This document shows, piece by piece, positions 35,484 to 38,439 of a stretch of 64,000 bases of DNA. A program made the translations under genes and the position numbers. Within the stretch, counting starts at the first letter, position 1; the number at the start of each line of letters is the position of its first letter. Below the pieces are notes generated by a model. That model did no database searches and was not told where the DNA came from. It saw only the letters and a list, made by a program, of their open reading frames with translations. Source of the DNA: Neoakkermansia glycaniphila (lineage in GTDB: Bacteria > Verrucomicrobiota > Verrucomicrobiia > Verrucomicrobiales > Akkermansiaceae). The stretch is taken from assembly GCF_001683795.1 (NCBI RefSeq), contig NZ_LIGX01000019.1:1-64000 (forward strand), given 5' to 3'.

Positions 35484-35513
35484 GGCGGTTCCTTTTCTGA
35501 TGGAGATCCGGTG

Positions 35514-37104
35514 ATGGAGCACGGCATTGCATGCGTGGCTGGCAAAGGGGTGCGCGATAGCTGGGTGATCGGAGGCGCTTTTTTGCTTCTGGCTCTCCCG
35601 AGTATGATTTTTTGCCTGGGCTGGCTGGAATGGTATGTTTCAGTGCCGCTTGGCGTGGCGTTGGCCGGATGTGTGGCGAGCGTCGTGTTTGGTCGTTCGC
35701 CTCATGTCATACGGTTGTCCCGCGGGCATGTGTGGAAGCTGCTGGTTTTGCTGCTGGTGGTGTTTGTGTATCAGTTTCAGGTGGGCTATACGGGGCATAC
35801 ATACCAACATTTCGATTTTTTCCAGAGAAATGCCTTTTACGGTAATCTGATTTCGTATCCGTGGCCGGTGGTTTTACCGGATGGGAGGGAGATGAGTTAC
35901 AATCTGGCTTTCTGGCTGCCTCCTGCGTTTCTGTGCAAGCTGCTTGCCATGGGCGGAGTGGATTGTTCTTCCCTCAGTGGGGTGCCCGGCTGGGTGATGT
36001 TGTTGTGGAATGTGTTGCTGATGTACGCAACGCTGCTTCTGGTGTTTCTGAAGCTGAAGAAGGTCAGTTTTTTGTTTGTGCTGTTTTTTCTGGGGATCGG
36101 TGATGCTGCGGTCGTGTTCGATTATGTGCCGTCCATGATGGGGTGGCTGGGGCAGCCCATGAGGCCGTGTTTTTGGAGTGGAGAGTTGATGGTTACCTGT
36201 TGCAATCAATTCCCCTTTGCCTATCTTGCTGTTGCGTTGATGCTGCAGGAGGGGAGGCCCGTTTGGTTTTATCTGGTCTGCGGCAGTCTGCTGTTGTTGG
36301 TGGCGCCATTGTCTTCCCTTGTGTTGTTTGTCTTTTTGGCCGGGTGCATGTACAAGGCGTGGACAGTTATGCGGGCTGCAGGTGTGGTGGTTTTCAGCCG
36401 TGGTTTTGTTGCATGGCAGGCTTGGGCGGCCTATGGCCTTGCCGGGGTTGCGGGGGTGTATTACATGCGTGCGGAAGAGCCGATGGCGATGTTTTGCGTG
36501 TTCAGGTATGTCGACGGTTGTTCGGGCGTGCTGAAATGGCTGGTTCCGGTGGCTCTCAATTTTGTTCTGTTGAATTATCTCCCGTGGAGGTATGGGCGTT
36601 GCCGCGTTTGGCTGCTGTGTGCGAATGTCGCTTTGTTGGCGCTTCCCGCCGTTTATATGGGTGGGATGAACAATGAGCTGATCATGAAGGGTATGCCCGT
36701 GGTGATGTTTGTTTTTGCCTGTTTGTGGGCCGAGGGTCCGGAGAGATGTGCTCGTTTGGTGCTGCGTGGCGTATACGGCTGTCCGCCTTTGCGGGTTCGT
36801 AGCCGTGCGCGTGCAGAAGATTTTACCGACATGGGCGAATTGGACGTACAATGTGTGCGATCCGTTTCAAGGGCATTTGTATCACCCCGGTATGGCGATC
36901 GATCAGTCCGTGCCCGGTACCAGGGAGGCGAAGCTGCCTCATGTGTTTTTAACGAAGCCGGGAGCTTCCGAGGAGGGTGCGCTTTGGTTTTTATGTACAC
37001 CGCCGAGCGAGAAGTACGAGAAGGATCGTTATGCGCCTGTGCGGTCGTATGATAATCTGGATAAGCCGCTGCCTTCGATTCCGCATGGATTGAAGGGGTT
37101 GTGA
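35514..37104 (+). pseudogene. Frameshifted polytopic membrane protein gene
   Basis: The first frame starts at ATG 35514 with GGAG about 9 nt upstream and encodes about ten hydrophobic helices. Near 36740-36800 this frame loses its protein character (PLRVRSRARAEDF). The +1 frame continues naturally (GFVAVRVQKILPTWANWTY, DPFQGHLYHPGMAIDQSV) to a stop at 37102-37104. One extra base would explain it. The intact protein would be about 530 residues with a short soluble tail. Topology resembles GT-C-type glycosyltransferases, but no catalytic motif can be assigned. A sequencing error remains possible. Confidence 0.7.
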
Positions 37105-37105
37105 G

Positions 37106-37234
37106 ATGGCTTTCCGGAGGTGGCCGAAGCATATGCGGCCGATTGCGCTGGTGATTACGCTTGAGAGGGGAGGCTCTGTCTTTCGCTTTTGGCTGATGGC
37201 GGAGTTTTTGCCTGTTTTATTTGCTCCTCCGTGA
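37106..37234 (+). other. 42-codon ORF, possible remnant of a truncated gene
   Basis: Starts 1 bp after the stop of the frameshifted membrane gene, the spacing expected of an operon partner. Its first ~20 codons read plausibly (MAFRRWPKHMRPIALVITLE), then it runs into the 3' end of the opposite-strand XRE gene. It may be the head of a gene cut off when this patch was assembled. Coding status is uncertain. Confidence 0.3.
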
Positions 37235-37523
37235 TGATCGGGGGGTGCTGTTTGATGCGGAATACATCGTCATCTGCGCTTGTTCTCAGGGTGTTGAGGA
37301 TTGACTGGGTCAGTTCGTGCGCGTCGATGCCGAGTATTTCGCAGATGAGGACGGCTTCCGTGAAGAGGAGGTAGCGTTCGCCCGATTCGTATTTGGAGAC
37401 GAAGGTGGGGGTGTTGTCGAGCAGGAGGGATAGTTTCCGTTGGGAGAATCCCTGTTCGATGCGTTTTCTTTTCAAGAAGTCGCGCAAGAGTTTCTCTTCC
37501 AGACTGTGCCTGTTCCTCAGCAT
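37155..37523 (-). CDS. XRE-family transcriptional regulator
   Basis: 122 residues. Residues ~13-70 are a Cro/C1-type helix-turn-helix (LKRKRIEQGFSQRKLSLLLD, TPTFVSKYESGER), followed by a polar C-terminal tail. It is divergent from the GT25 gene, and the shared spacer holds two similar inverted repeats. One overlaps the candidate promoters in both directions, so it probably represses itself and its neighbour. The C-terminus carries no metal or ligand domain I recognise. Confidence 0.88.
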   Translation of the reverse strand: MLRNRHSLEEKLLRDFLKRKRIEQGFSQRKLSLLLDNTPTFVSKYESGERYLLFTEAVLICEILGIDAHELTQSILNTLRTSADDDVFRIKQHPPIITEEQIKQAKTPPSAKSERQSLPSQA

Positions 37524-37548
37524 TTTTTAAGAATACACTAATTTCTTG

Positions 37549-37569
37549 ATTCACCCAAATTGGGTGAAT
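37549..37569. promoter_or_regulatory. Operator-like inverted repeat 1 (XRE/GT25 spacer)
   Basis: Perfect 10-bp inverted repeat ATTCACCCAA-A-TTGGGTGAAT. On the minus strand TTGGGT inside it is followed after 17 bp by TATTCT, a candidate promoter for the XRE gene, so binding would block transcription. Confidence 0.75.
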
Positions 37570-37613
37570 AATTTGATTTACATTTTATGGAGTGTGTTGT
37601 AGTGTTTGTGTGT

Positions 37614-37634
37614 ATTCACCTATTTTAGGTGCAT
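37614..37634. promoter_or_regulatory. Operator-like inverted repeat 2
   Basis: ATTCACCTA-TTT-TAGGTGCAT: 8 of 9 positions pair, total 21 bp, with the same ATTCACC half-site as repeat 1. Its centre is 65 bp from that of repeat 1, about six helical turns, and it ends 4 bp before the GT25 ATG. Confidence 0.65.
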
Positions 37635-37638
37635 TTTT

Positions 37639-38439
37639 ATGAATGAGCGAGCCATGGATGCGACAATTTTATTTCTGGCGATCAGTTTGCAGAGTTCCTC
37701 CGAACGCAGGAGGCGCCTGAAGGAGTTTGCGTGCAGGGCGGGGATTGATCTGTCGCTGGTTCCGGCGGTGACGGGCGACGATGTGGCGCAGATGGAGTTG
37801 GGGTTTGACCGGGAGAGGCGGAGGAAGGAGTTTTCTGTCGATCTTTTGCCGACGGAGCTGGCATGCATGGAGAGCCATTTGCGGTGTTTGCGGATGTTTT
37901 TGGGTTCGCCGCATACGCATTGCGTCGTTTTGGAGGATGATGCAAGTTTTGGGCCTGTTCTTCCTTCTGCGGTGAGCCGGTTGATTCGGACGGTGACAGG
38001 GTGGGATTTTGTCAAGTTATGGACGCCGGGCTCCAATTGGCCATTGGGTCGGGTGGTTGGGGTGGACTGTTCTCTTGAGGTGGTATATCCGAAGAATCTT
38101 TCCCGGGATGCCCTGGCGATTCTGTATTCCCGGGAAGGTGCGAGGAGGGTGCTGGAGCGGATGGGCCGTTACTGGATGGCGTTCGATACGCAGCTGGGTT
38201 ATGTGTGCTGCCGTGATGGTGTCGTGGGTGTCGGAGTGTTTCCGCCGCTTTGCGAGCCATCGCCAGATTTGCCGAGTTCGATCGATGCGATGGGGCGGCG
38301 AGCAAGGGCGGTGCCGCCTTCCGTGAAGCAGCTGGTGTACCACCGGGTGCAGCGATTGCTGAATTCATGGTACAAGCGAAGGCTGTACCATGAGGTTCGG
38401 CGTGCGGTGCGGTTTCGGGAACTGGGAGATGCGGAGTAG
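37639..38439 (+). CDS. Glycosyltransferase family 25 (LPS-type) protein
   Basis: 266 residues from ATG 37639; an ATG at 37654 is equally possible. N-terminal ILFLAISLQSSSERRRRL matches the GT25 start (S-x-x-R-R), and CVVLEDDASFGP is the E-D-D motif that binds metal and nucleotide sugar. GT25 enzymes add sugars, often galactose, to lipooligosaccharide. Control by the divergent XRE protein is likely from the operator positions. The gene ends 3 bp from the convergent nadK stop with no terminator between them. Confidence 0.85.
   Translation: MNERAMDATILFLAISLQSSSERRRRLKEFACRAGIDLSLVPAVTGDDVAQMELGFDRERRRKEFSVDLLPTELACMESHLRCLRMFLGSPHTHCVVLEDDASFGPVLPSAVSRLIRTVTGWDFVKLWTPGSNWPLGRVVGVDCSLEVVYPKNLSRDALAILYSREGARRVLERMGRYWMAFDTQLGYVCCRDGVVGVGVFPPLCEPSPDLPSSIDAMGRRARAVPPSVKQLVYHRVQRLLNSWYKRRLYHEVRRAVRFRELGDAE

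Follow-up and report, generated by a model that had tools for sequence, protein, structure and literature searches.

The palindrome pair between an XRE regulator gene and a divergent glycosyltransferase family 25 (GT25) gene in Neoakkermansia glycaniphila probably forms two operators of the adjacent XRE protein, which would be an autorepressor that also represses the GT25 gene. This reading comes from comparing sequences across relatives of the regulator.

A palindrome pair between an XRE gene and a divergent GT25 gene

We analyzed a window of 64,000 bases, the whole stretch of DNA studied here. Its relevant features are listed in order of position.

37155..37523, − strand: XRE regulator gene (122 aa, Pfam HTH_3), whose product is proposed to bind P1 and P2
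37530..37535, − strand: predicted XRE −10 box TATTCT, positions −12 to −7 relative to the XRE start codon
37549..37569, no strand: P1, candidate proximal operator, ATTCACCCAAATTGGGTGAAT, a perfect palindrome with arms of 10+1+10 (100% complementary)
37553..37558, − strand: predicted XRE −35 box TTGGGT, inside P1
37577..37582, + strand: predicted GT25 −35 box TTTACA, at the same place in five genus cassettes
37600..37605, + strand: predicted GT25 −10 box TAGTGT, 17 bp from the −35 box
37614..37634, no strand: P2, candidate distal operator, ATTCACCTATTTTAGGTGCAT, an imperfect copy of P1
37639..38439, + strand: GT25 gene (Pfam Glyco_transf_25), 266 aa from ATG 37639 (ATG 37654 is possible)

The perfect inverted repeat and near copy described in an earlier note on this DNA were confirmed in the window (65 bp apart, start to start), and the flanking genes are as it described them. 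The XRE protein passes the HTH_3 (PF01381) cut-off (39 bits versus 23), and the GT25 protein passes that of Glyco_transf_25 (37.4 bits versus 24) through residues 14–123, which match the first half of the model only. P1 is centered at −36 relative to the XRE start codon, and the window has no other perfect 10+1+10 palindrome. P2 has 8/10 pairs and is identical to P1 at 16/21 positions (76%) as printed, or at 17/21 in the better orientation. When the intergenic region of 115 bp (29% G+C) was dinucleotide-shuffled 20,000 times, a perfect 10+1+10 palindrome arose once and a P1/P2-like pair never.

A genome search for scattered copies had been proposed in the earlier note as a check. Across the genome (3,157,849 bases, 41 contigs), the only mismatch-free instances of the joint P1/P2 pattern ATTCACC-N7-GGTGNAT are P1 (both strands) and P2. 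With exact sites confined to this locus in the genome, we rejected the reading as a scattered repeat. With up to two mismatches the pattern occurs at 34 forward and 36 reverse sites, versus 4 and 0 for a reversed control pattern. The three one-mismatch sites elsewhere in the genome each lie under a mechanically called ORF of at least 100 aa. As the one-mismatch pattern is present in 58/59 relative genomes (own included), the loose pattern alone is uninformative.

Candidate operator register at −36 among XRE relatives

On a first reading of 13 loci, the upstream palindrome was centered at −36 in 10 and at −38 or −39 in the remaining three, by our own judgement, other palindromes scoring equal or higher in some of these loci. 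For a systematic count, a single start-codon rule was applied to 70 loci and 56 upstream regions were kept, from relatives in the same phylum, in another order and on viral contigs; the matches of relatives that were read are those with a locus. Dropped from the 70 were general HTH matches (L143, L145, L146, L147, L148, L149, L151, L152, L155, L173, L175) and near-identical upstream regions (L084, L128, L179); the upstream region of L161, among the 56, contains N. Outside the 70 were L066, L088 (without an in-frame start codon), L121, L123, L124, L126, L150 and L167, the general matches L089–L112, and the loci of the 387-genome phylum sample except L043 and L063. Many of these excluded phylum-sample loci coincide in position with later loci; exceptions are L051, L057, L058, L060 and L061.

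A palindrome of at least 5/8 pairs was centered at exactly −36 in 18/56 upstream regions; the next offset was −65 (n = 10), and the median was 2. The mean palindrome score at −36 is 9.7 sd above shuffles. The remaining 38/56 relatives fall below this score at −36, and a number of them have a palindrome 1–3 bases off, for example loci unlike that of G000 at −37 to −39. After a helix-motif filter and thinning to below 70% identity, 14/40 regions had a palindrome at −36; across 300 shuffled sets, no offset exceeded 7. We noticed the −36 position on the 13 loci before the count, 12 of the 56 regions are from those loci and some further upstream regions had already been inspected; among the 44 loci outside the initial 13, 9 have such a palindrome at −36 by hand count.

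As controls, we scored two sets. Among 15 general HTH matches of the genus, 2 had a palindrome at −36, against an average of 0.5 per offset and a highest count of 4, at −65; this set is small and contrasts weakly with the −36 peak. Of 132 mechanically called window ORFs of at least 150 aa, 1.5% had one at −36, the mean over offsets being 2.7%. The −65 peak comes partly from L163, L165, L166 and L170, a subfamily with ENSF/EHSFVWR-type helices and TGCGG-type palindromes, which near −36 also carries TTTTGCG, a related sequence. In a further XRE group of this genus (L099, L102, L103, L104), TTCCCG..CGGGAA palindromes lie near the start codon. A search of open-access full texts found neither this locus nor a −36 rule described.

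Predicted promoters of the XRE and GT25 genes

The predicted XRE boxes TTGGGT and TATTCT are 17 bp apart. In the 56 relatives, TANNNT is most common at −12 (12/56), followed by −29 (11/56), with a mean of 1.9; a portion of the operator core could account for the peak at −29. Shine-Dalgarno-like words occur in at most 2 of 56 regions at every position from −40 to −5 and form no peak. Transcription from a −10 box lying at −12 to −7 would begin at the start codon, so the XRE mRNA is likely leaderless, with the operator centered on the −35 box. Leaderless start sites are reported to make up 10% in Akkermansia muciniphila versus 0.4% in E. coli (PMC4782308), and the genes of controller (C) proteins are described as commonly leaderless (PMC4824078).

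A strict σ70 consensus scan of positions 37400–37800 detected no promoter, so the XRE boxes remain predictions. Comparison among relatives argues well for the earlier proposal of paired XRE operators overlapping both promoters, although the strict scan returned no promoter; the earlier interpretation as a whole is upheld in part.

On the divergent side, transcription of GT25 is expected to begin near 37612, and P2 would overlie its first ~20 transcribed bases. By eye, the right arm of P2 contains AGGTG (37627–37631), 7 bases before ATG 37639, a candidate Shine-Dalgarno sequence for GT25. Through this word P2 may act on DNA and RNA alike.

Sister cassettes with unrelated cargo

We compared the XRE cassettes of five genus genomes (G000, G080, G266, G089, G150), of which G080 and G266 are near identical, leaving four independent cassettes; G448 was omitted as its XRE relative has no in-frame start codon. 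In all five, a divergent TTTACA or TTGACA begins 52–54 bp from the XRE start, followed after 16–17 bp by a hexamer starting with TA and ending at 80–82. Shuffles placed a divergent promoter at the same position in 3–12 of 5000 cases per cassette (four tested).

Candidate second operators are centered at 101 (G000), 98 (G080, G266) and 101 (G089), each identical at 16 or 17 of 21 positions to the first operator of its own cassette. Shuffles matched the second operator in 0/3000 (G000), 1/3000 (G080) and 1/3000 (G089) cases. In 4/5 cassettes the second operator lies over the predicted divergent transcription start and would span roughly the initial 20 transcribed bases. G150 has no second operator (1603/3000 shuffles as good), and its GYF_2 gene begins at about the expected transcription start. 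Outside the genus, G328 has the −36 palindrome, with no in-register divergent promoter seen.

The four distinct divergent genes show no mutual BLASTP similarity better than E 1. They encode GT25, a 439-aa PEP-CTERM-like protein, a 193-aa lipoprotein-like ORF and a GYF_2 protein. The PEP-CTERM motif of the 439-aa protein lies over the cut-off of the NCBIfam domain (18.8 versus 16) and under that of Pfam (18.2 versus 20.7); the MKKLRILP start of the 193-aa ORF resembles a lipoprotein signal by eye. The role in surface-sugar modification suggested in the earlier note finds its sole support in the GT25 assignment, and the sister cargo was not recognized as glycosyltransferase. One plasmid XRE relative sits upstream of hsdR, and several farther XRE relatives are divergent from proteins that, by eye, seem secreted or adenine-methyltransferase-like.

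These cassettes could tentatively be read as a modular unit of fixed geometry (leaderless XRE gene with an operator at −36, divergent promoter at 52–54 bp, second operator at 98–101 bp) that in different species has been coupled to surface, secreted or sugar-transfer genes with no relation to one another. Recognition helix and half-site would then change together, possibly insulating the cassettes from one another.

Half-sites and a candidate specificity residue

Other half-sites found upstream of homologues are TTGTACC, AATATCC, TACACC and TTTACC. The predicted recognition helix spans residues 41–47 in the structure model of the XRE protein (pLDDT 84). We related residue 39, just before this helix, to the base preceding the conserved CC: glutamine goes with T in 16/17 loci and histidine with A in 7/10 (Fisher p = 9e-4, uncorrected for shared ancestry). 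Restricted to good palindromes, the counts are 13/14 and 7/8. The helix was readable in 55 loci, 27 of which lacked a CC-N7-GG site in range and so went uncounted. The window XRE protein has P39 and the site TCACC. The apparent association of residue 39 with this base is a lead, not a code.

Distribution and neighborhood of the XRE gene

In the sample of nearest relatives (E 0.001), the XRE protein was found in its own genome only (1/59; none in the 58 others). The wider phylum sample contained matches in 27/387 genomes, the own genome and 26 others. A strong family-alignment match (E <1e-20) was present in 6/76 genus genomes (G000, G080, G266, G089, G150, G448). Presence in few genomes of each sample marks the XRE gene as patchy and accessory. 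Phage records contained no match; viral contigs gave 0 matches with the single XRE protein and 12 loci with alignment A1, in which the XRE C-terminus is ~40 residues longer than that of its relatives. XRE matches were present in two plasmid records, and a search of genome contigs found two XRE loci; one of them, L011, was left out because its family membership is not clear. In the NAD kinase neighborhood of six relatives no ORF was labeled XRE or GT25, a weak result as the script hid many genes (one NAD kinase and one L5 labeled).

Several observations concern the surroundings of the gene. L088 (G448) is a close XRE relative in the genus that may be decayed, and an AATATCC-like sequence lies upstream of it. 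In G080, an IS1595-type transposase gene (Pfam; L067 6864–7889) adjoins the XRE gene, and ORFs with similar starts lie near the XRE gene in G266 (L068, same place) and G089 (L069, further off). In the window, the XRE gene is flanked by a membrane-protein-like ORF of 513 aa without a Pfam match (35511–37104) that looks interrupted: a different frame (36709–37104) encodes a plausible C-terminus, whether through decay, assembly error or a real frameshift.

Comparison with controller proteins and other XRE regulators

The nearest controller protein is C.Esp1396I (PDB 3ufd, 3clc; both operator-bound), which has a small HTH fold like that of the XRE protein. The Foldseek alignment of the XRE model with 3ufd_F has an rmsd of 1.8 at 20% identity and a TM-score of 0.84 normalized to target length. 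C.Esp1396I, C.BclI and C.AhdI are among the matches, in a fold common to XRE proteins generally, and the PADLOC Control_protein model matched weakly (E 0.0014). For the C.Esp1396I system, leaderless transcripts are described, along with palindromic operators that the protein binds both at the regulator's promoter and at the partner gene (PMC4824078), features resembling those proposed here. C proteins have a double C-box at their own promoter, whereas the XRE gene has a single palindrome there and the second lies 65 bp off at GT25; their partners are restriction-modification genes, whereas the neighbor here is a glycosyltransferase gene and the half-site is different (CC-N7-GG). No restriction or methyltransferase gene was recognized beside the XRE gene (Pfam on the flanks; PADLOC on three proteins). 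The XRE protein would work like a controller protein, yet by its linkage and the absent double C-box it is not one.

C.Kpn2I bound ~20 bp downstream of a start site is reported to block elongation, in a system with overlapping divergent promoters (PMC6237814). That roadblock lies at the regulator's own gene, whereas P2 lies at the partner gene. An XRE-type protein of Neisseria is described as affecting the divergent intergenic region of the capsule locus, where expression is increased (PMC12131743). Wang et al. 2025 describe autoregulated XRE proteins with a dimeric HTH and a palindrome within 200 bp upstream of their own gene, and report that 9/10 such palindrome predictions were bound in gel shifts (PMC12565409); in its main text we saw no fixed position rule and no swap of divergent cargo.

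The closest sequence relative of the XRE protein is 3f6w, an XRE-family protein of Pseudomonas syringae (E 2e-4), whose fold matches the model tightly (rmsd 1.0, 30% identity); in the open-access literature we found no paper on its DNA target. HipB-type antitoxins are dimeric XRE repressors of TATCC-type palindromes. The NCBIfam couple_hipB model scored the XRE protein at 23.9 bits, far under its cut-off of 71.65, and no toxin gene was recognized beside the XRE gene.

Proposed mechanism and alternatives

An XRE dimer on P1 would cover the −35 box of its own, probably leaderless, promoter and cause autorepression. A dimer on P2 would cover the first ~20 transcribed bases of GT25 and block initiation or early elongation. 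As P1 is perfect and P2 imperfect, P1 should fill before P2, so that XRE would stay low and GT25 would be repressed as XRE rises. The sites and their genomic uniqueness, the register of the first palindrome in distant relatives and the fixed place of the divergent promoter in the sister cassettes are observed; from there we infer that dimers bind, where the two transcripts start, that regulation is negative, that P1 fills first and that something relieves repression. The XRE C-terminal extension is one candidate for relieving repression.

Unlikely, though the best placed of the alternatives, is a pulse generator in which XRE on P1 represses its own gene and activates GT25 and, at high XRE, P2 silences GT25, as in activator-repressor controller proteins. 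C proteins are described as activating at low and repressing at high concentration (PMC4824078). Of the two palindromes P1 is the better one; it sits a short distance ahead of the GT25 −35 box, and its center falls ~53 bp before the predicted GT25 start. Against this, −53 is not known to be a usual activator position, and the second operator over the predicted transcription start in the sister cassettes points to repression.

We also regard it as improbable that the palindromes belong to a different regulator or function in RNA, as hairpins or terminators, and are not XRE operators. On the + strand, a scan flags both as terminator-like (two found; mean of 0.5 in shuffles), and P2 lies within the predicted GT25 leader and contains its candidate Shine-Dalgarno word. 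However, the leader around P2 (37610–37670) folds no better than shuffles (z = −0.04; 91/200 as good or better), and we rejected the RNA-hairpin reading of P2. The −36 register, moreover, accompanies the XRE family in distant relatives, and the half-site varies with the recognition helix.

An invertible element causing phase variation of GT25, as hinted at in the earlier note, is extremely improbable: beyond the 82% complementarity of P1 and P2 over 22 nt, which follows from the self-complementarity of each, we found nothing in its favor, just 42 bp lie between the two and the promoter direction is the same in the sister cassettes.

Implications for XRE regulators

Repression of both genes through P1 and P2 thus stands as our preferred reading, and it was reasonable to call this locus a compact and testable switch. 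The locus itself is expected, because autoregulation through upstream palindromes is a general expectation for XRE proteins, as described by Wang et al. 2025; the fixed geometry with swapped cargo is less ordinary. Through the comparison, what had been an isolated pair of palindromes becomes a regulator-operator system that can be tested, with a candidate residue for specificity. It suggests that some small XRE regulators are ready-made promoter cassettes for varied cargo. For unstudied XRE regulators, a position rule of −36, under which the operator overlies a leaderless promoter at its −35 box, could aid the search for operators from sequence alone.
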